Below, piece after piece: positions 2,854 to 31,800 of a stretch of 64,000 nucleotides of DNA. The DNA comes from Ypsolopha sequella (taxonomy: Eukaryota > Arthropoda > Insecta > Lepidoptera > Ypsolophidae): assembly GCA_934047225.1 (NCBI GenBank), contig OW204000.1:16448001-16512000 (forward strand). The letters are read 5' to 3'. Both the position numbers and the translations under genes were made by a program. Position 1 is the stretch's first letter. Every line of letters begins with the position of its first letter. The notes below the pieces were generated by a model. That model was not told where the DNA came from. It ran no database searches and saw only the letters and a list, made by a program, of their open reading frames with translations.

Positions 2854-2977
2854 CTGGGCCGGTTGGCCGCATTAAGCAGCCTCGCCTGTCGGCCGCGTCG
2901 CGCAGCTTCCGATGAGCTCCCGGACGACGACGACGATCGGGACTCGCTGTCCGACTCGCTCGATGATGATGACGAGT
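2854..2977 (-). CDS. ZC3H18: ZC3H18 coding exon 13 (Ser-rich), last exon in the window
   Basis: Acceptor ttgtaccacag, donor CCCAG/gtgaga. Completes the split GAC codon and encodes a Ser/Glu/Asp-rich stretch ending ARLLNAANRPR, phase 2. The acceptor and the first nine exon bases are identical to the unit of the adjoining minisatellite, so the cell must choose this AG among about 60 look-alikes. Confidence 0.8.
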
Positions 2978-5900
2978 CTGTGGTACAAGTAACGTATATG
3001 ACGAGTCTGTGGTACAAGTAACGTATATGACGAGTCTGTGGTACAAGTAACGTATATGACGAGTCTGTGGTACGAGTAACGTATATGATGAGTCTGTGGT
3101 ACAGTAACGTATATGACGAGTATGTGGTACAAGTAACGTATATGACGAGTCTGTGGTACAAGTAACGTATATGACGAGTCTGTGGCACAGTAACGTATAT
3201 GACGAGTCTGTGGTACAAGTAACGTATATGACGAGTCTGTAGTACAAGTAACGTATATGACGAGTCTGTAGTACAAGTAACGTATATGACGAGTCTGTGG
3301 CACAGTAACGTATATGACGAGTCTGTGGTACAAGTAACATATATGACGAGTCTGTGGTACAAGTAACGTATATGACGAGTCTGTGGTACAAGTAACGTAT
3401 ATGACGAGTCTGTGGCACAGTAACGTATATGACGAGTCTGTGGCACAGTAACGTATATGACGAGTCTGTGGTACAAGTAACATATATGACGAGTCTGTGG
3501 TACAAGTAACGTATATGACGAGTCTGTGGTACAAGTAACGTATATGACGAGTCTGTGGCACAGTAACGTATATGACGAGTCTGTGGTACAAGTAACATAT
3601 ATGACGAGTCTGTAGTACAAGTAACGTATATGACGAGTCTGTGGCACAGTAACGTATATGACGAGTCTGTGGTACAAGTAACGTATATGACGAGTCTGTG
3701 GTACGAGTAACGTATATGATGAGTCTGTGGTACAGTAACGTATATGACGAGTATGTGGTACAAGTAACGTATATGACGAGTCTGTGGTACAGTAACGTAT
3801 ATGACGAGTCTGTGGCACAGTAACGTATATGACGAGTCTGTGGTACAAGTAACGTATATGACGAGTCTGTAGTACAAGTAACGTATATGACGAGTCTGTA
3901 GTACAAGTAACGTATATGACGAGTCTGTGGCACAGTAACGTATATGACGAGTCTGTGGTACAAGTAACATATATGACGAGTCTGTGGTACAAGTAACGTA
4001 TATGACGAGTCTGTGGTACAAGTAACGTATATGACGAGTCTGTGGCACAGTAACGTATATGACGAGTCTGTGGCACAGTAACGTATATGACGAGTCTGTG
4101 GTACAAGTAACATATATGACGAGTCTGTGGTACAAGTAACGTATATGACGAGTCTGTGGCACAGTAACGTATATGACGAGTCTGTGGTACAAGTAACGTA
4201 TATGACGAGTCTGTGGTACAAGTAACATATATGACGAGTCTGTAGTACAAGTAACGTATATGACGAGTCTGTGGCACAGTAACGTATATGACGAGTCTGT
4301 GGTACAAGTAACATATATGACGAGTCTGTGGTACAAGTAACGTATATGACGAATCTGTGGTACAAGTAACGTATATGACGAGTCTGTGGTACAAGTAACG
4401 TATATGATGAGTCTGTGGTACAGTAACGTATATGACGAGTCTGTGGTACAGTAACTTATATGACGAGTCTGTGGTACAAGTAACGTATATGACGAGTCTG
4501 TGGTACAAGTAACATATATGGGTGAAATGCAGAATAGATGTACATAGATACAAATTAAGTTGTCCCGTAAGTTTGGAACAAGATACCGTCTTTTCTCTTT
4601 CCTTCATTAAAATTATTTCTACAATACTGAGTAGTGTATTTATTGTCCAAAAGCACCTTTTTTTATTTCTTTGATGCATGCAATCAGGCACGAATTATAT
4701 ATATATTTTTAATTTAATACTAAACAACTTTCATACAAATTTGAAATGTCTCTCCACTATTTGTCAATTTTGTGTATCAATTTACAAATTTTTCTAAGTT
4801 TAATTTAACCTTATTTTGGTTAAAATCACCACTTATTATCTTAATTAATAAGTTGAAATAGGCTGCAATTAAAAGGAAACGATCCAGTTTATAAGATTAG
4901 CATATTTAATGTTTGTCTCCACTTTTGTTAATTTCGTAACTCAGGGATAGTAACGCCATTTTGGGCACAACTCAACAACAATTCTACCATTAGATTGCAT
5001 TTTTATAAAATGGCAACACTTTCTCAAGTTATGTCAAAATATTGACAGTAAGATGGCCGTATTTTGCTTCGCAGTTCGTGGGTGGTATCAGACACGCATT
5101 TTGTTAAATATCAATATCAGGGTTACTAACGCGATTTTCCTATTTCCGGTGAGTATTATTCGTAAGTTATTTGTTGATTTATCTAGCGTAAGAGATATAA
5201 TTACCGCTGGGATACAAGTTATTGTCAAACCAATAGCGATTTTGGTAGGAAATATTTTTGAGGTTAGGATTTCTCAGTTTATTTTTTCAGTTTCGTAACG
5301 TTTCGTTACGTAACGAAACTGAGCTCTCAGTTTCGTTGCACTAAGGTTTCGTCCACAACATGAGTTTTTGATATAATATTTAATCAATACTATAAATTAA
5401 AAAATATATTTTATGCTATACCATGATACAGATCTGGTGTATTTCAGCTTAAAATATTGTAAAAGTCGAGACGAGACCTAATTTGCCTAATTTTAATTTA
5501 TATAAGTTTGCTATTTCATCACCAAAATAAGTAAAAAAAACAAATGAAAAAATATATTTAAAAAATAAAGTAAATTTGTTAATGTTTCTTTGAAGATAAG
5601 ATTGATTTTTAACAAGGTCTGTGTAATTGGTACATAAATGCCTATAGGTGTAACTTAATTAATAAAGTTGATTTATGTCATAATATTTCATTTATTTTAA
5701 TGCTTGTGTGATCTCACCCTTTCATTATCAGTTTCGTAACAATTTATCAGTTTCGTTGCAATCTCAGTTTAATAACGATCTCGTTACGGTACATCTATTC
5801 TGCATTTCACCCATATGACGAGTATGTGGTACAAGTAACGTATATGATGAGTCTGTGGTACAGTAACGTATATGACGAGTCTGTGGTACAGTAACTTATA

Positions 5901-8900
5901 TGACGAGTCTGTAGTACAAGTAACGTATATGACGAGTCTGTGGCACAGTAACGTATATGACGAGTCTGTGGTACAAGTAACATATATGACGAGTCTGTGG
6001 TACAAGTAACGTATATGACGAGTCTGTGGTACAAGTAACGTATATAGTAGTCACCTGATCCAGAGGACGAGGACCTGGAGTAGCGCTTCCTGTTGCGGCC
6101 GACCGGCTTCGTGCGGCCGTACGGATCAACCTCGTCCTGTAAACAAAAAGATATAGAGACCGAAACGCGCTATTGACTATTTTATTATCAATTTTATTAC
6201 TACGGTATAAATGGTTAAATTAATTTAAATAAGAATATAAATAAACTTGAGGATAATGACTTGATGGTGTAAACAACAGCTCACATCCATAAATACTACG
6301 ATCGGGATAGACGACCAGGTTCAGCAGATTCAGTCTGCCTTCTTCAGGGTGAATGAAGACGCTTACGCGACGATGAGGACGCACAGCGGTGGGTTCATTT
6401 ATGTACCTTATGTCGCTGCGTGGGCGGCGGCGGCGGGTTGGCAGCATGCTGGCGGGCGGCGGCGGGGGAGGGCGCGCGGCGGCGGGGCGCAGGCGGGTTC
6501 ATGGCGGTCGCGCGAGCTGTTGCCAGGCGACGCTCACGCACTATCACTGACGGGGATAATCTGCAACGTGAACAAGATAATGATGATTAAATAGTTATGA
6601 GGGCGCGTCTTCACTTAGGCGTACCATCCTCACACAATGTAGGTGCTTAACAGACGCAGTTAGGCCTCTAGAGACAGATTTTTACGCATTTTTACGCGTG
6701 GTTTCATTTTTTTTTTGTACATGGGGTAATAAAATGTACAGTAAGCCATGGAAAGGAACGCGCAAAAAGGTGTCTGCGAGAGGTCTTATTCAAATTCAAA
6801 CCAGAGGGAAAACAAGAGAACTTTTTACAGACGGGGCCAATGTCTCGCTGATTGGTCGAGCGCTCTGCCCCATATCGATAGATACTACATACACACAGTT
6901 TAAAGTACCATTTATCACAAAGTGATATTAAATTATCGAAAGAACCCGATGCCCGTAAAAAATTCACTACCGAAAATTTTACTGAAGTTGGTAGACTCTG
7001 AAGTTAATAGACAAAGACAATGCTTATTGGAAGATGTTTTTGTTTGTGCCATTAATGTCACATGAGTTAAACTGCGAGAACTGCTTATACCCGGTGCGCG
7101 TTAGCATGGCGATAGCGGTCATTGACCCCTTTTGTACTGTCGTAACTAGCGGCCATATTGACCCCGCTAGTATAGTACGCTTAGAGACAGTACTTTCGCA
7201 CCTTACGCGGAACATATAGAAGTATCGCTACCGCAAAAACGAGTACGGTGGTTAAAGGGGTGAATGACCGCTATCGCCTTGCTAACCCGCACTTACTATA
7301 TGCAAAATTATAGGTGGTAAGCGCAACAAAAACAAACGTGTTTGTTACAGCTATAACATTTGCTCAACTCTGCATTCTGACTTATTAGATCAATGCAAAA
7401 CACAGACCACATGGCTTAGTGGTATGTAATGCAAAACAATAAAATAGAGCATTTGAATTGAAAACAATAAATGTCACCACCAAAAATAATTTTTCAAAGT
7501 TTGTGCGCGAAACACCGAAAGTTCGCAATCAAAGGGCGAGCGGTCAGAGAGAACGAAGCAAGCGAATAGTCGGTAGAGCTCTTTCATTTGACCTTAGAGA
7601 GAAAGAGCGACTGACAGTTCTCTCGCTAGGTCTGTTCGCTGCTCATACATTCTTATCCGCGCCCCGTAGCCCATAGATATATCGCGTACTAACTAAAAGC
7701 CTCGGCAGACAGACATCGTTGAAGCACGATGGTAACTGCCGGCCGACATCGAGGTCATCCGCGCCGGGCGAGTAGAGGAGGCCGGAGGCCAGTTGCCCAG
7801 GGAGGAGCTAGGGGCGTGTAAGCGAGCCATTGCCGCGGATGTTGTTGCTCAGTAGCAGACCCGATGGTTAGACGTCGATAAGGGCCGCGAATTATTTAGT
7901 TTTTTTCCCGAAGTCGAAGCGCGACTGAAGGCTTCGTGGATAGAGCCGGACTACGAGACGTCGCAAATAATCAGCGGGCACGGCTGCTTTAGGAAACGGC
8001 TACACAGCATGAGGCTATGTCACGTTAGCCACTGTGGATGCGACCTAGGGGTTGACGAAGACCGGGACCACGTCCTCTGGGACTGCCCTTTATACGGCGA
8101 GGAGAGGCGGCTGCTGTTGGACGGCGTGACACGTGCGGTTTCGGGTTCAGTTTATTTTCACGATCTCGTCTCCTCAGAGGCGAGCTACTCACCGCTCAAG
8201 AGATTCGCGCACTCGTGGCACAAAAAGAGGAAAATGTGGCAGATTGGGTAAAGCGCGCCGGCAAGCACTATATATTTGTAAGCGTCTTGCGCAGAATGCG
8301 CCGCAGCTTAGAGGCCACGGCCGCGTTACGGTGGGAAGATGTGGCCGGGACACCGCGCTTTGCAAAGAAGAGCATAAACTGCTGTAGGGGGTGCAGTCCC
8401 GGCCAACGTCACGCTTTCTGTCTGCCGAGGCCTTTACAGACGAGACAAATAAAATGACATACATTTTCAATCGTACGACCCAAACAAATCCACATACCTC
8501 TGTCTCGACGAGGAAGAAGCCCTTCTCTTGCGTCTGGCACCTGGTGACCTTGAACTGCGCGAACTGGAATTTGAAGAGCTGCCGGGTCAAGCACCGCGGG
8601 GACGGGGGGGACGGGGGGGACACGCACACAGACACGTTCCTCACACAAGCAGACGTGATCGTGAAGCAATCCCAAAGATGAAAGAATTGCATGCAGAATG
8701 GTTAAATGAACACCGTAAACCATCGCACAGTAAAATGAAAGTAAAACCCGTTAGCAGGGAGGGGGAGCGGGGGAATATCCATGTTAATAAATTTGATTCA
8801 GGAAATTCGAATTGAGAATGGGTTGATTATTGAATTATGCTTTAATTTTTACTTTCATTGTTTGATTTTCAAATAAAAATCAATAATATTTCAATATCGA

Positions 8901-11900: not shown

Positions 11901-14900
11901 ACAATACATTGTGAAAGCAATAGCGATTGATATACTCACTAATAAGTTTTTAACCAATAATGGGCCAGATCTCTAATCCATGCCTTTGCAATTTAGATAG
12001 CAATATTTCGTGATTCCCGAAGTCAAAAGCTTTGCTCATATCTAAAAATATTGTTACTGTTGGTGTACCTTTATTTAGATTTTCAGTAACACCTTTCACT
12101 AGGTTCAAACATGCAAGTGAAGTTGAACAGTTTTTTCTAAAGCCGTATTGTTTCTGCGTTTAGATGTTATGTTTATTTAATAAACTTGTATGTCGTTTTT
12201 GCATAGTTCTTTCAAATCACCTTTGAAATGACGGAAATCAGAGTTACTGGTCGCTAATGATTAAGATCTGATTTGTCACCTTTTTGTGTATGGGCTTAAC
12301 AATGCTTATTACTCCAACTGATGCCGGGCCCAGAAATATATCTTCGACTCTATTGTGTTATCTTATAATAATTGTGTCTCATTTATATGTATTTACCTAT
12401 ATAATTATATAAATAATGATATACAAGGTGACTTTTTCATCATCGTCCAAATTCATACTGGAGGCTTAGTAAGTGATCAGCATAATGAATCGATAACAAT
12501 TTTTGTGAAATTCGTGTAATGAAATTTCGACTTCCCGAATCACTATGGGGAGTCGAAATTTCATTTTATGAATTTTACAAAAATCGTTATTGGTTCATAA
12601 TGCTGATCACTTACTAAGGCTCAAGTATGAATTTGGACGATGTTCACAAATTCACCTTGTATATAAAAAACAAAAGAAACAGGTTTAACAATGCTAAGTT
12701 TTAAAGCTCGTGGAAAGCTCTCTTCAGAAAACGACAGATTTATAAGAAAGCTGATTGGTATACACAGAAAGTATGCACATAATTTGAGAACTTTGGTACT
12801 AATTTCATAATAACTCACAGAATTACTATTACTTAACGACATTATTATCTTGAACACCTAGACAATAAGGTCCTTAGGTTGAGAGTTCAGCGTTTTAGGG
12901 ACTGAGCTACCGCTGCTATAGTATACTTTAATCTCGTATCGACTGGGGTCTATTGTTATAGCGATAATGAGAATAAAGAGGGAATGAGAATAATGAAGTC
13001 GGCAGATTAGAGAATGTGCACCTGAGTCTTCTGTGGAAGTGGGTGAAACGGCGCGACGTTAATAGCGGACGGGTTTTCTGGTTTTGGTCCTCCATATCGT
13101 ATCCTTGTTTTTACCTTGTGATAAGACGCTTCATCAGCAGCAGACGCATGCTCATCGTAATGCGGAGGTCGCTCAAATTGTCTCTCTCGCTCGTACATGC
13201 GCTCTCGGTCGCCGTAGTATCTCTCTCTCTCCTCCATCATAGGGCGGCCATGCGGCATGAAGCGCGGGGGGCGCCCGAACATCGGTCCGAATGGACGGCC
13301 GCTGAAAACGATAAATAGGGTGTCATTGATAAAAAGCAGTAATAAAAACTGCCTACGCCCCAAGTTTACGTCATACGCCAGCTACCAACGTACCTGCAGA
13401 CATCCGAGTCTCCCTCCCTCTCTATGTGCGGCGTGTCGTGGTGCGTGGGAGGAGGAGGGGACGCCCTAACTGCTGCCGCCGCCAGCTAGCAACGTACCTG
13501 GAGACCTCCGGGTTTTTCTCCCTCTCTATGTGCGGTGGGTGCGGCGTTGGTGGGTGGGAGGAGGAGGGCACACCCCAACTGCTGCGGCGGCATACGCCAG
13601 CTAACAACGTACCTGAAGACCTCCGGGTCTCTACCTCCCTCTCTCTCTGTGTGTGTGAGAGGGTGTCTCCGTTGTGTGGGTGTGGCGTGTCGTGGTGGAT
13701 GGGAGGAGGGGACCCCCAACTGCTGTGGCGGCATACACCAGCTAATAACGTACCTGAAGACCTCTGGGTCTCTCTCCTTCCCTGGGTGTGTGTTGGTGCG
13801 GCGTGTCGTGGTGGTTGGGAGGAGGGGGCGCCCCAACCGATGCGGCGGCATACGCAAGCTAACAACGTACCTGAAGACCTCCGGGTCTCTCTCCCTCTCT
13901 CTGTGCGGGTGTGGGTGCGGCGTGTCGTGGTGAGTGGGAGAAGACGCCCCAACTGCTGTGGCGACTTACGCTAGCTAACAACGTACCTGAAAGCCTCCGG
14001 GTCTCTCTCCCTCTCTCTGTGCGGGTGTGGGTGCGGCGTGTCGTGGTGGGTCGGAGGAGGAGGGGACGCCCCAACTGCTGCGGCGGCATACGCGAGCTCT
14101 GCGTCCGGATCGTGAACCACTCCACCCACTGACAAGTGGAGTTTCTTCTCTTCGAAATCCATGTCTTGTTCTTTGCGCTTGTTCGCTATGCGGAGCATCT
14201 AGGGATAAAAGGATGTTTCAATTATAGCTGAGTGACTTATCTTGCACTACATATTGATGACATGGCTCGGGTTTCGCTCTGTTGACTGTAATTTTTTTAT
14301 TGCTCTCACTTCAGCTTCTGTTTTATCATGATTTTTGCTATCTAAGTTCTTTCTGTAGGGTTGACTGGGAGAAAATGCTTCTAGCATTAAGTCCACCTGT
14401 TGTACATTAAACTGTGTTTTGTGCAATAAAGAATTTAGAAGAAAAAGTTACCTCTTTAGCAGTCCTAAGTCCCCGTTCCCAGGCGGACTCGACGGGCGGT
14501 TGGTCCTTTAGCGCGGGGTGTGGAGGGTACGGAGCGGGGGCGGGGGGCACCCCCCTCACCATCTCAAACATGCTGTAGTTACCCTTGTCTGTGACCCCGG
14601 GGTGAAGGAATCTAGGGAATATAAGAGTTTATATTAAAAATCCAACTAAGCAGAAACTTGTTAAGCGATTTGAAATATTTGTTTAATGCACATAATGCTC
14701 TTTTTAAGGCGAAGATAACAAGAGAAATCTGTCCTACTCCAACATTTAATTTTAAACTCAGTGGAAGCGAGCCGCTCAGAAAACTCGCGATTTCCATGTG
14801 TTTTTATTTATTATTATTTTATTAGAGGGATGGGCTTTATTTAAATGCTGGCCGTTATGTATCGCATTTAATACGTTTATTTTGTTACAAGTTTTATTGT

Positions 14901-23900: not shown

Positions 23901-26900
23901 ACACAACACACTATGTAATAGTAGTTTATGCTACAAGGGCGCAAAGGAATAAAGTACGAGGACGATTTAAAACACGAGCGTAGCGAGTGTTTTAAACGTA
24001 ACCGAGTAATTTATTGCTTTTACGCCCGTGTATCATACTACGTTTTTCAATGCATAGTGTGAGGAAATGAAAACAAATATAATCTTGTGAACTTTAAATT
24101 ATAATTGGCTCAAAAAGACTGTATCCAGAGCCGTTAAACAGTGTAAAAAAAAGTATAACATCTATGGTACACAGGAAAGTCTGCAGGTTAGCCAACCATT
24201 GTAAATAAATTTAAAAAAATAATAATAATAAAGCCCTAGGGCTAAATAATCGACTTTTTGTTCGGTTTTGATGCATAAAAAGTGGGCCTTTACGAGCACA
24301 TGCATTGAAAATGTTTTTATGCACTTTTTCCACTGTTTTTCCTCGTCGCCACTATTATATACTCACAAATATAGTCTCAGTCTTGATGAGTAGCACACGT
24401 TAGGTATTTGACACAAGCCAGACTGGTGATTTTCATCTACCTCCACATTATGCACTGACATGTATAAACTACTCTCTATGTCCAGTACACTAAATTATAA
24501 TTAGTGTCTATCTGTCTTTTAGTCGGACACCTTTTTATCAGAGATTGATAAAGCCATTTTGAAATTAAGATGTTGTAAAGCTTACAGCACTTAGTTAAGC
24601 ATTATTGCTTCAACAATAAAAATGTTTTTGTTTTAGAACAATTTTTTATTTTTTGTGTAATTTAAGTAATGCCTTTTTATCAGAGACTGATAAAGCCATT
24701 TTGAAATTTGGATGTTGTAAAGCTTACAGCACTTAGTTAAGGATTATTGCTTCAACAATAAAAATGTTTTTGTTTTAGAACAAATTTTTATTTTTCGTGT
24801 AATTTAAATAATTTTGCCAAGTGCGAGTCAGACATAGGGTTTCATACCACCAAACATTACTAGTGAAGAACCCTAAAAACCATATGATAAATATACCATT
24901 TAAGATGCCAAACCAACATCAAGGCAACAAAAAACAAGGCACTAAAATGGTAGCGCCTGACAATTAATTCGGCACCCTTCTGAGTACAAAACACAAATTT
25001 TTATTATTTATTGTTTTACTGTAGAGTATGTATTTTTATATATTACCGTCTTTAAGATAGAGCTAAAACAAATAACGTTAAATAATGCATGCTTTCTTTC
25101 GAGGTTTTTTTGTATGGACAGACCGACAGTGGAGGCTTAGTAATAGGATCTCGTTGGCATCCTTCAGGTATGGACTTCTTAAAAGTGCAAAAGTACTATA
25201 ACACCTTTATTCCTGAAAGTAGGTGACTGAAAATATTCCAAGATATATTTTTTCCGTATGAAAAATCTTTCCTTCTGATTTTTAATATTGGGAAGGATGT
25301 ACCTATTTACAAAAGCAAGGAGGTAGAGATGCAACGCTTGGAAAGATCTTTATTTGGCATGTAAGGTAAATTAACTAGCAATGTGAACGAACCTTTTGTT
25401 CTTTTTCTGGTTCCTCAGGACCTATAGAATCTAAATCAGACACGTCTGATAAGTCTTCATGACTAATATTGAGAGGGACATCATCTTTATTGTCAAGTTT
25501 CTCACTAATTATTGACTTGCTTGGAGATTTCCTGTCCTCTTGGTCAGATTCCATTTCACCTGAAATTTTAATAATAATATATTATATTAGAACCATGTTC
25601 TTTTTAAATAACTTTTTTTAGACTTCGTTACAAAAGGCTTAAGGGGGAACGATTCGTATCCTCTACGAAAAGCACAACTTAAGATGGTTCTTCTTATTTT
25701 TGAATTAAAGATATTAAAAAAACGGGATTTATAGCATTTCGCGAACATAGTTAAGTGTCATTTGGGCTTTTCTGGCAAAATGTTGTTATATTATGCATAA
25801 CATTGTAAATGAATGGGCACACATACTTAAATCGTGTTTTAAGTTTGTGTGCCCATACATCTACAACGTAATGCATAAAATAACAAAATTTTGCTGGAAA
25901 AGCCTAACTGACATTAAACCATGTTCGCGAAATGCTATAAATCATATTTCTTTAATATCTGTAATGCAAAAATAAGAAGAACCATCTTAAGTTGTGCGTT
26001 TCGTAGAGGATACGAATCATTTCCCCTTAAGTGGTGTTAATAATAGTGTCAAGTAAAAAGGCCCTTACATCCCACATTTTACAGAAGATATCCTAGGCAG
26101 CAGGAATCAATCATGTGAGACTGGTGTCCCTACTGACCAGGCTTCTGCTGCTATTACACTAAAGTATAAATTACCTTCCGAAATCTCTTCAGTAGGAGGG
26201 TCCTTAATATTTGTCCGTTTATTGTATGAGGAGCTCCGGGTAGACTGACTAGAGTTAGACCGAGAGTGTGCTGTGGGGGCCTGTTTTTGTTCTGCCTTAT
26301 TTTTTCTTCTCCACTTATCCTGAGGGCTCCACTCATTCCTGTTTACTGGAGATAGCGAATTTCTATCTGGTGAAGGCCGGAATTGTTCAGTTTTTCTTTC
26401 TGGAGATACAAGTTGAGATGTAGCTTCAGGCGATGCTGGCTGCGACCTAGTTTCCGGTGATGGTTGAAAATGGGCATCAGGGGAGGCTGGAGCTGATCTT
26501 GCTGAGCTGCTAGGACTTTGCGGTGTTTTAGGCCCATCTTTTGGAGATGCAGGAGCTGAATAGTGATCCTGTTGTTCTGGTGAAGCTATGTTTGATCCAT
26601 GTTCACTTGGAGATTTTGGAGCATCTGGTGATTTTGGGCCAGCCGGTGATGCTGGCATTGAGTTGTCAGGTGAGTTTATGTCAGAATGAGCTTCACTTAA
26701 GTTGTCGGGGGAGCGTGGAGGTTTGCTGGCGGGTGATCTAGGGGACGGAGATTGAGATCTGGATCTGCTCTCTGGAGAAGGAGATCTAGGGCCTGGAGAA
26801 GGGGATCTTGGGCCAGGGGAATGAGATCTCGGGCCAGGGGAAGGGGATGTTGGGCCGAGGGAAGGGGATCTAGGACCAGGGGAAGGGGATCTTGGACCAG

Positions 26901-27102
26901 GGGAAGGGGATCTAGGACCAGGAGAAGGGGACCTTGGGCCATTAGAAGAAGGAGATGGAGGGGATCGCGGTGGAGACTTGGGGTTCTTCCTTGAACCCAC
27001 ACTTCTGTCTGGAGATGAGCTACGGCTACTCGAGCTGGAACTGCTACTGCTTGAGGATGACTTAGCATCTCCGCTAACATCACGAGAATCCTCTGACTCC
27101 AT
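2854..27102 (-). CDS. ZC3H18: Zinc finger CCCH domain protein 18 orthologue, 13 coding exons visible (3' end off window)
   Basis: In animals ZC3H18 is a nuclear adaptor linking the cap-binding complex/ARS2 to RNA decay (NEXT/exosome). Thirteen exons, read from high to low coordinates, join in phase into 955 codons plus 2 nt. Residues 1-309 are a Ser/Pro-rich region. An acidic tract (about 417-435 and 471-488) precedes a single CCCH finger C493-X7-C501-X5-C507-X3-H511, followed by FLHPG and DKGNY. The conserved ESAWERGL (549-556) and DFEEKK (575-580) blocks follow, then an Arg/Glu-rich stretch, DEWADPW (780-786) and RS-rich exons. This order matches human ZC3H18 (about 950 aa, recalled). The vertebrate-type C-terminal tail is not seen, so the gene continues left of base 2854. 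Oddities: two splice-junction tandem arrays lie inside the gene. Identity is firm; boundaries of the RS exons are inferred from splice consensus and phase. Confidence 0.9.
2966..4519 (-). repeat. 28/29-bp minisatellite carrying a 3' splice site, main block (~54 copies)
   Basis: On the plus strand the unit is gacgagtctgtggtacaagt plus aacgtatat (29 bp) or a 28-bp form with ggcacagt. Minority variants are gtagtac, gtacgag, gatgag, gagtatg and aacatat. On the gene strand each unit contains TTGTACCACAG followed by ACTCGTCAT, the junction of exon 13. A ~630-bp higher-order duplication is visible: the rare tacgag variant recurs at 3071 and 3702 with matching neighbours. Confidence 0.95.
4520..5812. 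mobile_element. Non-autonomous DNA transposon, 24-bp perfect TIRs, ATAT target duplication
   Basis: It begins GGGTGAAATGCAGAATAGAT and ends with the exact inverse. ATAT flanks both sides (4516-4519 and 5813-5816), and removing one copy restores a normal minisatellite unit. The interior is AT-rich with repeated CAGTTTCGTAAC-type motifs near the right end (5280-5780). A plus-strand 81-codon ORF at 5053 resembles nothing I know. Superfamily not assigned. Confidence 0.85.
5813..6045 (-). repeat. 28/29-bp minisatellite, gene-proximal block (~8 copies)
   Basis: Same unit and orientation as the main block, and split from it by the transposon. Its order of variants (gatgag, then tggtacagt, then aacttatat) also occurs at about 4400-4460, suggesting internal duplication. 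Confidence 0.93.
6055..6136 (-). CDS. ZC3H18: ZC3H18 coding exon 12
   Basis: Acceptor ttgtttacag, donor GGATCAG/gtgact. Encodes DEVDPYGRTKPVGRNRKRYS followed by RSSSSGSG, phase 0 to phase 1. The minisatellite starts about 9 nt after its donor. Confidence 0.8.
6137..6406 (-). other. ZC3H18 intron 11/12 with a MITE J remnant
   Basis: 6222-6392 matches MITE J (gatcgggatagacgaccagg, cagcagattcagtctgcctt), reaching to about 15 bp from the exon-11 donor. Confidence 0.75.
6407..6560 (-). CDS. ZC3H18: ZC3H18 coding exon 11 (Pro/Ala/Arg-rich)
   Basis: Acceptor cacgttgcag, donor CATAAG/gtacat. It takes phase 2 to phase 0, exactly what is needed between exons 10 and 12. The peptide (LSPSVIVRERRLATARATAM and then poly-Pro) is not conserved enough to recognise alone; GC-richness and splice sites support it. 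Confidence 0.68.
7096..7296. mobile_element. TIR element (~200 bp)
   Basis: gcgcgttagcatggcgatag with cggtcattgacccc at the left; ggggtgaatgaccgctatcg with ccttgctaacccgc at the right. Confidence 0.8.
7725..8275 (+). pseudogene. R1-clade retrotransposon C-terminus
   Basis: Conceptual plus-strand translation: QIISGHGCFRKRLHSMRLCH, then the zinc-knuckle-like C..C..H..C motif CHVSHCGC...EDRDHVLWDCP, followed by YGEERRLLL. This is the usual end of R1/TRAS-type ORF2. Upstream matching sequence has frameshifts and a TAG, so it is a fossil. Confidence 0.8.
8498..8578 (-). CDS. ZC3H18: ZC3H18 coding exon 10 (RS-rich)
   Basis: Acceptor after a C-rich tract (gacccggcag), donor AGACAGAG/gtatgt. In the phase required by exon 9 it reads SSSNSSSRSSRSPGARRKRR, an RS-domain segment in the position where human ZC3H18 has its Ser/Arg tract. 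The antisense strand is an acidic open frame that looks coding but is a mirror of RS codons. Confidence 0.8.
8922..9194. mobile_element. 270-bp palindromic MITE family A, copy 2
   Basis: tatacaacgtgtaacaaaaa to its inverse; small deletion near the right arm (ggtttgttccatagaagttg). Confidence 0.9.
9585..10500. mobile_element. Family C palindrome with nested insertion
   Basis: Outer ends ttaagagcggtttcgcagcc and the inverse near 10500 match 52465-52836. The internal block 9636-10235 is foreign and has its own inverted arms (gatggcgttgaactga / aagttcagcgccatc). Confidence 0.75.
11188..11438 (-). CDS. ZC3H18: ZC3H18 coding exon 9 (RE-repeats and DEWADPW)
   Basis: Acceptor tcgcaaacag, donor ACAAG/gtatgt. 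Encodes residues 726-808: Arg/Glu-rich with three tandem VRERGGE-like heptads, then DEWADPW, which aligns with the family's DEWKDPW. Ends SSDDSYSST in phase 2. Confidence 0.87.
11950..12855 (-). pseudogene. Jockey/CR1-like RT fragment interrupted by a MITE
   Basis: Minus-strand pieces: VSYYEISTKVLKLCAYFLC and FLINLSFSEESFPRALKLSI (12663-12855), then after the palindrome KGDKSDLNH and RPVTLISVISKVI, then stop-riddled sequence including CMFEP. Order and motifs match RT fingers/palm; dead. Confidence 0.75.
12420..12661. mobile_element. Palindromic MITE (~240 bp) inside the RT fossil
   Basis: atacaaggtgac... and ...tcaccttgtat ends, with arms atcgtccaaattcatact, cttagtaagtgatcagcat and the central gaaatttcgactccc. 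Confidence 0.85.
13022..13301 (-). CDS. ZC3H18: ZC3H18 coding exon 8 (Gly/Pro/Arg-rich)
   Basis: Acceptor cgttttcag, donor CTCAG/gtgcac, 280 nt in phase 2 to phase 0. Begins GRPFGPMFGRPPRF, then a Glu/Arg-rich segment (EERERYYGDRERMYERERQ) like the RE-rich stretch of vertebrate ZC3H18. Confidence 0.85.
13302..13986 (-). other. ZC3H18 intron 7/8, mostly donor array
   Basis: Five intronic copies of the exon-7 end fill this intron down to about 13382. Only about 80 bp upstream of the exon-8 acceptor are outside the array. Confidence 0.8.
13382..14098 (-). repeat. Tandem array of exon end plus 5' splice site, six copies of 104-141 bp
   Basis: Each unit (minus strand) has a CAGTTGGGGCGTCC-like start, a His/Pro and Arg/Glu-coding stretch, GAGGTCTTCAG and the donor gtacgttgttagc. 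Candidate donors follow exon bases 13987, 13871, 13754, 13613, 13498 and 13394. The first unit is the end of coding exon 7; the other five lie in the intron. CA/CT-rich tracts within the unit make lengths variable. Confidence 0.9.
13987..14198 (-). CDS. ZC3H18: ZC3H18 coding exon 7 (its 3' half is the array repeat unit)
   Basis: Acceptor tccctag. The first codons encode KRKEQDMDFEEKK, matching the family. The exon ends EAF plus 2 nt at donor TTCAG/gtacgt. Reading through the donor meets a TAG five codons later. The last ~110 bp recur five more times in the following intron with the same donor; those copies carry GTC (Val) where this exon has GCT (Ala) just before the donor. Use of a later copy cannot be excluded. 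Confidence 0.85.
14199..14451 (-). other. ZC3H18 intron 6/7 with a LINE 3' tail
   Basis: A plus-strand motif at about 14360-14445 (gggagaaaatgcttctagca ... gtgcaataaagaattt) matches the tails at about 16490-16675 and 17045-17160: the truncated 3' UTR of a non-LTR element with an AATAAA. Confidence 0.55.
14452..14611 (-). CDS. ZC3H18: ZC3H18 coding exon 6 (finger His and ESAWERGL block)
   Basis: Acceptor ttccctag, donor AAGAG/gtaact. Starts FLHPG with the zinc-ligand His511, continues DKGNY and a Pro-rich linker, and ends ESAWERGLRTAKE. This is the most conserved part of the family and gives the identification. Confidence 0.93.
15668..15835 (+). mobile_element. ~170-bp MITE family G, copy 1
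   Basis: Ends carry inverted ctaccgc(t/g)taattctcat; the interior includes tttgcacgcgttgaatttcg. A full second copy lies inverted at 20688-20856. Confidence 0.8.
16123..16347. repeat. 54-bp tandem repeat, four copies
   Basis: Unit contains gtcaactctaataaacaaaa and acgtgtttaacttaaacaga. The period is a multiple of three and there are no stops in one frame on either strand, so both strands show ~75-codon ORFs of an 18-residue repeat. Probably not coding. Confidence 0.9.
17045..17160 (+). mobile_element. LINE 3' UTR/tail fragment
   Basis: gtctggaagaaatcgctcta followed by agcgataagaccgcc and a terminal cacaataaagcg is a recurrent 3' end of lepidopteran non-LTR elements (recalled). No ORF is attached. 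Confidence 0.6.
17232..17394 (-). CDS. ZC3H18: ZC3H18 coding exon 5 (CCCH zinc finger)
   Basis: Acceptor cttccacag, donor TGCAG/gtgggt. The correct frame is fixed by the phase-1 donor of the previous exon. It reads EEGEVSDEAE and then CRFYSRGACTWGISC, the first three zinc ligands; the His ligand is in the next exon. Another open frame across the exon (KKSERLSAS...) fits neither splice phase nor family. A SINE tail ends about 10 bp upstream of the acceptor. Confidence 0.92.
17405..17690 (-). mobile_element. tRNA-derived SINE, copy 1
   Basis: On the minus strand the head has a box-B-like ggttcgatccctggtcgggc and a box-A-like region, then a body matching the copy at 44236-44600, and ends at an AT-rich tail next to the zinc-finger exon acceptor. 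The anticodon arm is degenerate, so this is not a working tRNA gene. Confidence 0.8.
18165..18235 (-). mobile_element. SINE 3'-end fragment
   Basis: atatatcgtcacgacatgaa and tctccgagagtgtgtcggg match the 3' end of the SINE at 17405-17690; the head is missing. Confidence 0.6.
18886..19121. mobile_element. TIR element, ~236 bp
   Basis: Arms cccccggtttctgaaaggcc and the inverse ggcctttcagaaaccggggg, followed by tctactgtt/aacagtaga inside. AT-rich interior without an ORF. Confidence 0.8.
19261..19559. mobile_element. hAT-like MITE with 8-bp target duplication
   Basis: Starts CAGGGTTTCCCGGATT and ends GAGAGTTGGCAACCCTA, flanked by GTTATAGG at 19253-19260 and 19560-19567. The 8-bp duplication and CAGGG-type end fit the hAT superfamily. 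299 bp, no coding capacity. Confidence 0.85.
19616..19765. mobile_element. MITE family H, copy 1
   Basis: Inverted gtgttactataaaa-type ends with the internal arms acagtgtttaaatctgttg and caacagatttaaacactgt. A second copy lies at 34168-34290. Confidence 0.8.
19807..19942 (-). CDS. ZC3H18: ZC3H18 coding exon 4 (acidic)
   Basis: Acceptor gttatag, donor ACGAG/gtatat. Encodes residues 409-453 in phase 0 to phase 1, including the acidic motif FEAEEGECVE. ZC3H18 family members carry a comparable acidic stretch upstream of the zinc finger. Confidence 0.85.
20019..20411. mobile_element. Palindromic MITE family K, copy 1 (~390 bp)
   Basis: Arms such as cttagcgcaaaatgcataac pair with the inverse near 20380-20400, and aggtttataaagca with ctttataaacct. 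The same family at 51372-52463 is split by a LINE tail. Confidence 0.8.
20640..21145 (+). mobile_element. Jockey/CR1-like reverse transcriptase fragment (broken by MITE G)
   Basis: Plus-strand conceptual pieces read LYAGDLQLI (degenerate YADDLQLY catalytic box), then after the 20688-20856 insertion AVQKLNINLDSISVRIEQYG, then a shifted ILGLHIKNNMSWHLHV. These are the typical thumb-region motifs of jockey-type elements. Frameshifts and the insertion make it dead. Confidence 0.75.
20688..20856 (-). mobile_element. MITE family G, copy 2 (inverted relative to copy 1)
   Basis: Near-identical to the inverse of 15668-15835, bounded by ctctaccgcgtaattctcat and its inverse. Inserted inside the reverse transcriptase fragment. 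Confidence 0.8.
21147..21205 (-). mobile_element. Fragment of the TTAA palindrome family C
   Basis: Matches the terminal arm gaaccgc-type end (gcgggtttttcacaatccgg ctgcgaaaccgct) of the full copy at 52465-52836. Confidence 0.7.
21816..22084. mobile_element. 270-bp palindromic MITE family A, copy 3
   Basis: Ends tatacaacgtgtaacagaaa and its inverse. Nested arms include the conserved tcaatggtatagaacaact. Same family as 730-1002, 8922-9194 and 39154-39424. Confidence 0.9.
22315..22772. mobile_element. TIR element with ~80-bp arms
   Basis: Left arm includes gagatcattttcaacagatt and ctaggggtcgaaaata; the right arm is its imperfect inverse (tttcgacccctagttgataa). ~460 bp, non-coding. Confidence 0.75.
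23078..23335 (+). mobile_element. RTE-clade retrotransposon 3' end with GATG tail
   Basis: Conceptual translation shows KLKWQRAGHICRR..DGR and, in a shifted frame, GRPRARWTD...AGSGWMRMTQDR...IGEAYIQQW, the C-terminus typical of RTE elements. It ends in repeated gatg units. Frameshifts mark it as dead. Confidence 0.8.
23377..23505 (-). CDS. ZC3H18: ZC3H18 coding exon 3
   Basis: Acceptor acttgcag, donor AAAAG/gtaagg, 43 codons in phase 0, starting PKSPSPPASP. It continues the SP-rich disordered N-terminal half (residues 366-408). Confidence 0.85.
23506..25392 (-). other. ZC3H18 intron 2/3
   Basis: Contains a short palindrome around aaaacacgagcgtagcgagt (23930-24040) and a ~141-bp tandem duplication (24530-24810). 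Around 24820-25150 are common dispersed-repeat phrases (gcaccc..tctgagtac, ggaggcttagtaa) also seen at 15430 and 31540. The remainder is unrecognised. Confidence 0.6.
24530..24810. repeat. ~141-bp direct duplication, two copies
   Basis: cctttttatcagaga(t/c)tgat begins each copy (24530 and 24672); both end in the aacaatttttattttt-type stretch with a few mismatches. Confidence 0.85.
25393..25559 (-). CDS. ZC3H18: ZC3H18 coding exon 2
   Basis: Acceptor attttcag, donor AAAAG/gttcgt. It completes a split Gly codon and encodes an acidic, serine-rich segment ending EPEKEQK (residues 310-365). The phase joins the flanking exons exactly. Confidence 0.85.
25560..26174 (-). other. ZC3H18 intron 1/2 with palindromic element
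   Basis: Filled largely by the TTAA-flanked palindrome at 25641-26033; the rest is short flanking sequence. Confidence 0.7.
25641..26033. mobile_element. Palindromic element with TTAA ends (~390 bp)
   Basis: Left gcttaagggggaacgattcg and right cgaatcatttccccttaag are near inverses, with arms of well over 100 bp. TTAA at both edges suggests piggyBac-type mobilisation (inference). Central arms contain the self-complementary ttgtgtgcccat/atgggcacaca. Confidence 0.75.
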
Positions 27103-27724: not shown

Positions 27725-28558
27725 CGAAACTTAGTAAAATGAACACTACTTGAACAACATGGCTGTGATACAGGAGGAAATATATAACATAATAAATAAT
27801 CACTTTCCAGTACTCCCGGAGGGTTAACTTACGTCCTTACCTTTACTGAGATGGATTGGACGGTAATATTCTTGCTGATTTAATTAATAATCAGTAAAAA
27901 TCCTTATTTTGCGCCGCCACAGCCCTTTCGCATCGTAATTTATTTTACCATAGACATTTTTTTTCCATTTTTGTTTTCGCACCAACTGAGAAGGCAAAGG
28001 GAACTTTGCCCATAAAGCCTATTCTGTGTGTGTTACAACTATTTAAATGACAACGACCCATTTGTTTTTTTTATCAGCCCGTGGTTTCAATATTCAGTAT
28101 AATTTACAAAATATATGCTTTTTGTTTCATTGAATGGAAGTTTACTATAATGAAAGATTGCTTGATAACATTCTCTGCTTGACTCTTTAGAATTTCTTGA
28201 ACGTTGCCTTACTATAGATTGGCATTTTTTTATAGTGTTTCTACTTCGTTTCTACAATGAGAGGAAATTCCCTTTTTGAGGGCAAATCAGACTCCAGAAA
28301 AAGGGAAAAGAGCTAGAGAAGGGAAATTGAGGGGAAATCATGAAAAGATTTAAGTGAAAACACTGATTTCTCTATATCGTTTCTTTGGCTCAGAAGGACT
28401 TGCATCCAGAGCCGTAAAACCATTAAAAATATATTTATATCGTTTCTCTATGCTTTTTGGGCGCCAAACTCCATAATTTTTTTGTTTGCTTTGCCAGTTT
28501 GCAGTTATTCTTTAGTTTTCGTAATAATATTCGTTAAGTTTTAAATAATATTTGTACA
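27725..28558. promoter_or_regulatory. Shared divergent promoter region of ZC3H18 and DMC1
   Basis: The ZC3H18 first exon and the DMC1 start codon point away from each other across ~850 bp. I cannot place a transcription start exactly. Around 27960-28030 is a segment (aaggcaaagggaactttgcc) that I recall as a dispersed repeat in moths, so part of this interval may be transposon-derived. Confidence 0.45.
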
Positions 28559-28881
28559 ATGGCTGATCAAGCTCTTGACGATAATGTTTCTGAAGTGGAC
28601 GAAGAGGAAAGTTTTTTCCAAGATGTGGACATTTTACAGAAACATGGCATTAATGTAGCCGATATTAAAAAGCTAAAAGCTTCAGGAATATGCACGATAA
28701 AAGGTATTCAGATGTCCACTAAAAAGAAACTTTGCAATATAAAAGGATTTTCCGATACCAAGGTAGAGAAAATTAAAGAAGCCTGCCAGAAAGTCGTTTC
28801 TCTAGGTTTTATGACTGCGTTGGAAGTTAGCGATAAACGAAAACAAGTTTTCAAAATAAGTACAGGAAGTGCAGAACTTGA
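28559..28881 (+). CDS. DMC1: DMC1 exon 1
   Basis: Starts at the ATG preceded by aatatttgtacaatgg; ends AACTTGA/gtaagt with two bases of a split Asp codon. Encodes the acidic N-terminus and HhH domain. A 5' UTR exon junction is possible but not visible. Confidence 0.95.
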
Positions 28882-31800
28882 GTAAGTTAGTTGCCTTTCC
28901 AATTTTACCCAGGATGCAATAGTTTAGGGTTCTTTTAAACGGATTATGAGTTTTGTTTCAGTAAATTATTAGCAGGCGGTATCGAGTCGATGGCTATAAC
29001 TGAAGTATTTGGTGAATTCAGAACAGGAAAAACTCAACTATCTCATACGTTCTGCGTCACCACACAAATACCAACCTCCAGCGGCTACCACGGCGGAAAA
29101 GTCATGTTCCTTGATACTGAGCATACTTTGTATCCTTTTCAGTTTAATCATTTGCTTGGAGGCAACAACAGGATCGGATCAACAACAAGGAAAAACGTCA
29201 TATAGTCAAGATGATGTGACGATTGACGGTTTAGGTTTATAAGGGTTTTATAACAGTTTAGTAACAACCGAACAGATTTATAGAAGTTTATTATAGAATA
29301 TTTTATTTTTTGGCAACCGTTAAGTCATTTAAGTTAGTCATGAAAAATGAAAACGTTTTGGCAACTACTTTATACGACGATTATATAGAAGTATCAGTGA
29401 TGACGTTAACATGTTAACATTTTGTGTGGTAATAACGTTTTAGTCAAGTTAAAATCAAGCGCAAATGATTTCGTTATTTTGAAAACGTTTATACCTACAA
29501 TACTTATATAACAGTCGCATACTTGTTGTTCATTATAACATTTATATAATGTTTCTGTTATAACGATTACGGTTACATGCCTTTTCTATTATTTTAACGT
29601 TATTTTAGGAACGTTTATGCAACAATTTTGAAACAATTGTATTGATTTACTTAAAATGTTTATATAATGTTTATGTTATATAATTAGTTTATTATATCTT
29701 TTTGATTATCTAACGCGATGGAGTAACTTTTGTGTAACTCGGCCATTTAAATTTGAAGTCAGTTATGGAAAAATATTAAACGAAGTGGTGGTTTCAAAAT
29801 AGAAGTGAGAAAAACGTATGTTTCGTTACAAAAAGAAGAAAAAAACAACATTTAATTGTATAAAAAACCGAAGCAAACAATGTGAAACTGGCGAAAATCA
29901 AAGTGGGTCCGTACATTCTTTTTCGTCAGAAAGCACCAAACAAGATGAAAATGGTGATTTTTTACTTATGTTTAGAAATCGTAGGTCACCTTTTAAAAAG
30001 GTTTTCTAAGGCTACAGTACCCTAATTACAACTGTCATAGTTGACATGTAGCAAAACACAAGTTATATAAGCAACGCCTATAAAATTAAATTGTTATATA
30101 CACGTTATATAGCGGTCCCCTAATGTTTCGTCAACAAAATCCATCGTCAAGGGGTTATTTTGTTGGACCCTCCCCCCCTAAAACAAAATCCCGGATATGT
30201 TCCTGCTGGCACCGATATACTCGTCAGACACGTGTTCAGTTCAAGACACAAGTACAAAACAAACAAATACGCGTAGTCCAGTCAATCTATGAACTCTTTG
30301 TATGGAGAAGGTTGAATGAAACGTGCACTAAGTGAAAATTGGGAAAATATCAGTAAACTAAGTGAAAAATTTAAATTTCGCAGCCGGATTGTGAAAAGCC
30401 CGCCTAATAGTTATTCAACAAAACCTTATTATCTATGTATTGTGTATGTTTCCATTGCAAAGTTTCCATTGGTTTCTGTAAATTAGAATTACGAAAATTT
30501 TGAATTTAAGTGTTCTTTTTCGATAAATTAGAAAAAGGTGGGCTTTTCACGACCCGCGGCTGCGAACCCGCTCTTAATTAGACCATGGCTAAGAACAATA
30601 TTAGTAAGATCAGGAGTCTAATTATTTTGGAAACAATAAAAAAATATATTTCTTCCGGGGGAATGTCAATTATATGAAAATACTATTATTTCGAAGTCAT
30701 TTTACTTGTGTATGTTTAATTCGACGTCAAATATTTCATTACTGGACTAGCGTGCCGTAATAAAAAATCGAGTGCGCGGTAAATTTAATTACGTAGTTAA
30801 TCTTATCGATTACCTATTTATTAGTAGGTACAACGCATACATTACATAGATCAACATTCGTAATTCAACATTAAAATTACCATTCATGCGTGGGAAAATT
30901 ACAGTTGCTTATAAATTATTTGGCTAAGTACGAGTCGAACTCGCGCACAAAGGTATCCGTACCACATAATACATGTACGGAACCCTAAAAATATTATATT
31001 TACAATATTATACCTCGAAAATATTATATCAACATCAATATAGATGCCAAAGCAACAAAAAGGCGAGTCCGAATTTCTTCAAATAAATCCTCGAAAGTCT
31101 GGCGTTGTTCATGCTCTAGGCTCATGTACAGTCTTAACTCGGCTCCTTCTAAGTACGGAACCCAATTTTTTATTATTTGTTGTTTACTTTGGGGTATGTA
31201 CAACAATCTGACCTTTGAAACTTGTATGTAAGAGTATCACCGTTTTTAAGATAGAGCTGAAACAAAAAATATAGGTAAATAAAATCTACTTTTTCGAGGT
31301 TTTGTGTATGGATTGGATTGGATTTCAATATTTAATTTTTTTGTTTATTTTATGCAATGTTCGCCTGAAAGAAGCTTTATTATTTGCCGTGATAGAGGCC
31401 ATACACGTAACACGTACTGTGTGAAAATTTCAACTGCCTACCTATCACGGCTAAACCTGTGACAGACGGACGGACGGACGGACAGACAGACGGATGGCAG
31501 AGGTTTAATAATAGGGTCCCGTTTCGTTTGGAACTCTTCGGGTACGGAACCCTAATAATACAAAGTTTGTAATAAATTATATAGCGTGCTGTACAATACA
31601 CTAATAGCTAAACTTTGAAATTCTTATTGGTTATTAAACATTTAAATTCCTAATGAGTACTAAAACTTTTCCCTGAACTTATCGATTCCAGTCGGCCTGA
31701 TCGATTGAGGCCTATCGCAGACAGATTCAACCTTGACCAAAATGCTGTTTTGGATAACGTCTTGTATGCCAGAGCGTATACTTCTGAACATCAGGTAAAT

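Follow-up and report, generated by a model that had tools for sequence, protein, structure and literature searches.

We describe an intron of the gene ZC3H18 in the moth Ypsolopha sequella (assembly GCA_934047225.1, contig OW204000.1, positions 16,448,001 to 16,512,000; this whole stretch of 64,000 nucleotides (nt) is the window, and all coordinates below count from its first letter) that is built almost entirely from 62 tandem units carrying its own 3' splice junction. Our favored explanation, which we consider probable, is that the array is a minisatellite of the exon-boundary type known as "mirages" in amphioxus, grown in place, tolerated by its host gene and close to neutral. The structure is real and striking, and it is an extreme form of a known, little-described kind. 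An earlier reading of the letters alone (the original prediction) had placed about 60 copies at 2966 to 6054, beginning about 9 nt past the donor, running into the downstream exon and filling, together with one transposon, almost the whole intron. Each of these points held, with 9 unique nt at the donor, 62 units counted and the end of the array at 2969 rather than 2966. The elements of the intron and its two exons, in the order in which the gene is read, are as follows.

6055 to 6136, minus strand: ZC3H18 exon 12, upstream of the array, 82 nt, ending ...SSSSGS G/ (a slash marks the exon edge), aligns to orthologs
6046 to 6054, minus strand: the sole unique intron sequence, donor GTGACTACT
5813 to 6045, minus strand: portion of the 28/29-nt acceptor array nearest the donor, with 8 units and the beginning of a split one
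4520 to 5812, no strand assigned: non-autonomous DNA transposon, 1293 bp, no long open frame seen
2969 to 4519, minus strand: main acceptor array, with 52 AG acceptors downstream of the transposon, the authentic one counted
3065 to 3093, minus strand: variant unit ACTCATCAT..., with a branch-site-like CTCAT at 3092-3088 and an AG at 3066-3065
2978 to 2979, minus strand: authentic acceptor AG, as placed by the ortholog alignment
2854 to 2977, minus strand: ZC3H18 exon 13, 124 nt, reading D SSSSSSESDSESR..., its first 9 nt common with the repeat unit

The intron from exon 12 to exon 13 runs from 6054, where the donor GTGACT begins, to 2978, and its 3077 nt divide into the 9 unique nt, 1775 nt of repeat (the target duplication of the transposon included) and the 1293-bp transposon. 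The repeat spans 6045 to 2969, that is, it continues for 9 nt into exon 13 (ACTCGTCAT), and its unit consists of the final 20 intronic nt followed by these 9 exonic nt, as had been proposed. The 62 units comprise a partial donor-proximal one, 20 of 28 nt, 40 of 29 nt and one split by the transposon; mean pairwise identity is 94.5% (61 units, the donor-proximal one left out and a 28-nt unit counted with one gap), and Tandem Repeats Finder (TRF) gives the array scores of 2740 and 403. In 59 of the 62 units the intron-like part ends in ACAG, and the 9 nt after it equal the exon start or differ from it by one base, whereas in the other three it ends in ACAT; the predicted dozens of near-equal acceptors 28-29 nt apart are thus present at the sequence level. 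A block of 12 units (BCDDBBCDEEBD by unit type) recurs in the main array at a distance of 22 units, a pattern expected from unequal exchange. The 9-mer ACTCGTCAT has no occurrence in the 64-kilobase (kb) window outside 6054-2969 on either strand, and the probability of matching 9 nt in a single fixed register is about 4e-6, although a junction-spanning array contains such a match by definition.

The host gene lies on the minus strand and is the lepidopteran ZC3H18: the joined exon pieces aligned with 12 orthologs at 71-77% identity, and the alignment across these orthologs includes the CCCH finger and its flanks (the zf-CCCH_4 profile on the cut exon alone scores 21.3 bits, under its cut-off of 24.6). 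The ortholog search gave 204 proteins at E <= 0.001, with the best 120 of 204 listed. For residues 704-825 the best match is the protein of the bagworm Eumeta japonica, with 86% identity. The exon numbers 12 and 13 are labels from the original prediction; the exons used here and the other parts of the gene, all on the minus strand, are listed below.

27102, minus strand: start codon
near 25560-25400, minus strand: an additional exon
19942-19807, 17394-17232 (CCCH finger), 14611-14452, 14198-13987 and 13301-13115, minus strand: exons used
11438-11188, 8578-8498, 6560-6407, 6136-6055 and 2977-2854, minus strand: exons used, continued

Exon 13 is directly followed on its 3' side by the donor GTGAGATC, and exact words from the conserved C-terminal end of ZC3H18 were not found within the window. 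The start exon also holds a 21-bp coding repeat (SPGPRSP-like, 26777-26941, minus strand), over most of which the 12 aligned orthologs show a gap.

Whether the repeat came from the exon or the exon from the repeat can be judged from the orthologous proteins. The 9 nt that exon 13 shares with the unit encode (G)AC TCG TCA T, i.e., D-S-S-S, and the start of the exon was compared, in proteins only, across 16 orthologs (P0001-P0016), four of which (P0009, P0013, P0015 and P0016) are without the region. The residue at the exon start is E in 9 of the remaining 12 (one without the preceding SG), D in two and G in one, and Ser-Ser follows directly in 11 of them and Thr-Ser in one. At the protein level, the exonic part of the unit is therefore genuine conserved coding sequence, 12 of 12 having a Ser/Thr tract preceded by E, D or G. 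Since all 12 orthologs with the region keep this pattern, exon 13 is probably older than the repeat, i.e., the repeat would have taken over exon sequence and not the reverse. That the junction itself was captured as a unit and then expanded, as the original prediction held, appears well supported, because conserved coding sequence at the beginning of the exon lies within the repeat. The same alignment suggests 2977 as the edge of exon 13 that is used, and relative to this edge the unit crosses the exon-intron boundary (20 nt of intron end and 9 nt of exon), which is the defining property of a mirage.

The transposon has perfect terminal inverted repeats of 24 bp and a 4-bp target duplication, ATAT, and it sits in a type-C unit; removing one copy of ATAT restores a unit type found elsewhere in the array. 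Its end word occurs in the 64-kb window at its own two ends only.

A second, donor-side array in the same gene, which the original prediction had not foreseen, provides further evidence for duplication at the junctions of ZC3H18.

13380 to 14098, minus strand: tandem exon end and donor CAG/GTACGTT, 6 copies, at spacings of 104-141 nt

The copies derive from the end of exon 14198-13987 and have their last exonic bases at 13987 (authentic), 13871, 13754, 13613, 13498 and 13394, with CAG/GTACGTT kept in all six. In 12 of 12 orthologs (P0001-P0012), GASPP and a variable stretch are soon followed by R, 1 to 3 residues and then YG or FG; this continuation is what splicing from the first copy into the next exon would give, and on this basis the authentic donor is assigned to the first copy. 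If any of the other five donors were used instead, a stop would be reached about five codons beyond the edge of the first copy. Both arrays grow into the intron and leave the exon whole, and with the donor array both 5' and 3' boundaries are affected, as reported for mirages.

The original prediction knew of no described gene with such an arrangement, which is wrong as to kind: amphioxus mirages (PMC3087553, PMC3902484) and human boundary repeats (PMC2812944) are both on record. Mirages are exon-boundary minisatellites with units of 10-160 bp, at 5' or 3' boundaries and of variable length, and reportedly leave splicing undisturbed (PMC3087553). They are described from Adh3 (units of 10-72 bp), the globins BflGb6 and BflGb9 (about 150-160 bp), troponin C and PGBD5 (the latter two from PMC3902484); many units keep AG/GT signals, and concerted evolution and length change are reported (PMC3087553, PMC3902484). 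The moth array is like them in that a tandem repeat spans the exon-intron boundary at a 3' or a 5' junction, and the presence of both kinds in one gene has a precedent in amphioxus PGBD5, whose repeats overlap both kinds of site (PMC3902484). It differs in its insect host, in its number of units (62 vs. 3 and 6 in two BflGb6 haplotypes) and in that practically no intron sequence remains beyond the array and the transposon. In human genes within segmental duplications, variable internal tandem repeats are found at exon-intron boundaries, with a mean unit of 30 bp and 4 copies (PMC2812944). These are likewise minisatellites of ~30-bp units at such a boundary; however, their copies number about 4, and they are described as making novel introns inside exons (PMC2812944). 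NAGNAG tandem acceptors also offer more than one usable AG close by, but there two NAGs lie 3 nt apart and here dozens follow one another at 28/29 nt, while intron creation by tandem genomic duplication (the Rogers model and later work, named in PMC3087553 and PMC2812944) likewise involves duplication around splice signals within a gene. By title and the start of the abstract, no insect exon-boundary repeat was among the literature matches listed, with most subscription papers out of scope, and, by title, none of the matches listed for ZC3H18, insects and splicing concerned such an array; the excerpt of PMC2206037 contains nothing on mirages.

What is new, then, is the insect host, the ~60 copies and the near absence of a remaining intron body. 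The array would extend exon-boundary minisatellites from lancelets and human duplicated genes to insects, with two junctions affected in one gene and one whole intron taken over. It also offers a natural experiment on 3' splice-site choice, in which 59 acceptors with a nearly identical 20-nt upstream context differ mainly in position; such a series of acceptors would allow scanning, kinetic first-come choice and exon definition to be told apart.

Under the favored explanation, a 29-nt stretch across the junction (20 nt from the intron end, 9 nt from the start of exon 13) would have been tandemly duplicated, and unequal exchange or slippage, with which the observed block repeat is consistent, would have brought the array to about 62 units. 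The old intron body, now absent, would have been displaced in the process; a cut-and-paste transposon landed in one of the copies, as the split unit shows. The array would be tolerated because every duplicate leaves the downstream exon whole. Exon 12 would mostly be joined to the true edge of exon 13, and a minority of transcripts would probably use the last few upstream AGs, 28/29 nt apart, giving products that are mostly frameshifted and degraded; judging from the published cases, the array is most likely near neutral and variable in length. The conservation of ZC3H18 suggests that correct joining is still frequent enough.

The reading frames of the array are consistent with this view. All 7 AGs upstream of the transposon lead into a stop, and the 52 downstream of it fall into roughly equal thirds: 16 keep the frame and stay open, 19 shift it without meeting a stop before the exon ends, and 17 shift it and meet a stop. 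Of the 29 columns of the unit, 22 never vary, and the G of the AG is altered in 3 of 61 units, so that selection for the AG or for in-frame spacing was not seen (29 columns and 61 units; 16 of 52 AGs in frame, close to one third). An AG that is not specially conserved, together with random-looking frames, favors neutral expansion. We also considered the array as a coding repeat, given that long reading frames cross it, and rejected this possibility: 14.4% of shuffled units are also stop-free, a single stop interrupts one of the three frames after the transposon and each of two frames before it, and the mix of 28- and 29-nt units scrambles the frame across the array.

Several points weigh against the favored explanation. 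In human introns, the scanning rule holds that the first AG downstream of the branch point is chosen, with AGs within 12-15 nt bypassable (PMC1431707), and it predicts that the authentic AG, the last in the row, should often lose. Use of this last AG is deduced from orthologous proteins only. The standard unit is without a branch-site word of the form yUnAy, which only variant units carry, and for human boundary repeats of similar unit size alternative transcripts are reported at 66% of 27 intron modifications (PMC2812944). Because practically no intron exists outside the array and the transposon, any branch point must sit in one or the other. Prediction of branch points unit by unit, which the original prediction had called for, gave no yUnAy word in the standard unit and CTCAT in 4 variant units; outside the transposon, CTCAT is the only fit to yUnAy. 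Relaxed words do occur in the standard unit (GTCAT, its A 22 nt before each edge, and GTTAC, its A 13 or 42 nt before it), and a TTCAC at the transposon end, ~25 nt before the first AG beyond the transposon, is a predicted branch-site-like word. The absence of yUnAy is not unusual for this gene, since 3 of the 8 other acceptors scored (those labelled E, G and H) also lack it, the remaining five (C, D, F, I and J) having a word 12-55 nt upstream. Pyrimidines before the authentic AG number 10 of 17, and 9-13 in the other eight acceptors.

Alternatively, the spliceosome might spread over many of the AGs and produce a ladder of ZC3H18 mRNAs in steps of 28/29 nt, the isoform generator of the original prediction. 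In this case one favored product would come from the AG at 3066-3065, the use of which would add 87 nt in frame and open, i.e., 29 residues within a serine-rich stretch of low complexity. The A of the CTCAT at 3092-3088, which could serve as a branch site, lies 25 nt before the edge following that AG. The 59 near-identical acceptors, with a pyrimidine content within the range of the other acceptors scored, speak for such a ladder, and the altered splicing at human boundary repeats (PMC2812944), with the frequency of alternative transcripts given above, adds weight. On the other hand, a frameshift would follow from the use of 36 of the 52 AGs beyond the transposon, the AG is not conserved across units, and amphioxus mirages are reported to splice normally (PMC3087553). 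Further, a 179-residue translation of the array had no protein match at E <= 0.001 among 6034 candidates, which were limited to proteins of about 98-313 residues in a database where this species' own proteins were not seen. We regard this alternative as unlikely. Any role of the array beyond neutral expansion, whether as a splicing timer, an isoform generator or a length switch, would for now be an idea only.

A bolder version appears less likely still. With every branch point and acceptor confined to the repeat or the transposon, exon 13 could be chosen stochastically among dozens of near-equal AGs, with variant units steering the choice to the in-frame AG at 3066-3065, and array length and unit order could then set the share of functional ZC3H18 mRNA and of an isoform with the 29-residue insert. 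Together with the donor array and a duplicate-like exon start in Ostrinia (below), ZC3H18 would then be a gene in which mirages recur among moths.

A satellite or transposon-borne repeat inserted at the junction, with the 9-nt exon match arising by chance or by target-site choice, would account for the loss of the old intron body, as replacement would leave it. However, the acceptor and 9 nt from the start of a conserved coding exon lie in register within the repeat, its 9-mer is found nowhere else in the window, and the second junction-spanning array in ZC3H18 points to in-place duplication; a scan of viral_contigs with a 20-mer also gave 0 matches, a result that says little about a moth. Hence, we consider an insertion of this kind improbable. 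Finally, although long arrays are prone to assembly error and an amphioxus mirage is reported to have been aberrantly assembled in a genome draft (PMC3087553), an assembly artefact that created the array or inflated its copy number is the least plausible of these alternatives, since the clean target duplication of the transposon and the block repeat of variant units are hard to obtain by mis-assembly and the presence of the repeat over the junction is independent of copy number.

Similar structures may exist in other insects, and the following two cases are leads from protein models only. Repeated 9-mers with at least 6 kinds of residue were found in 4 of 123 proteins scanned (P0009, P0090, P0040 and P0058). 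In Ostrinia furnacalis (P0009, isoform X10), residues 697-772 form two tandem 38-residue stretches that start with the exon start RLSPSVIV, and the linker IFLSVY/R could be a translated polypyrimidine-AG, i.e., a 3' junction repeat. In Homalodisca vitripennis (P0090, a low-quality model according to its source), residues from about 641 to 800 contain three copies of another exon start, and the linker QVS...FVQ could represent a donor and an acceptor.

Elsewhere in the window, an open frame with a helix-hairpin-helix domain lies at 28538-28885 on the plus strand and resembles the N-terminus of DMC1/RAD51. Long imperfect inverted repeats were seen by eye at approximately 270-1000, 2500-2650 and 12440-12660, and are likely foldback elements or elements resembling miniature inverted-repeat transposable elements (MITEs).

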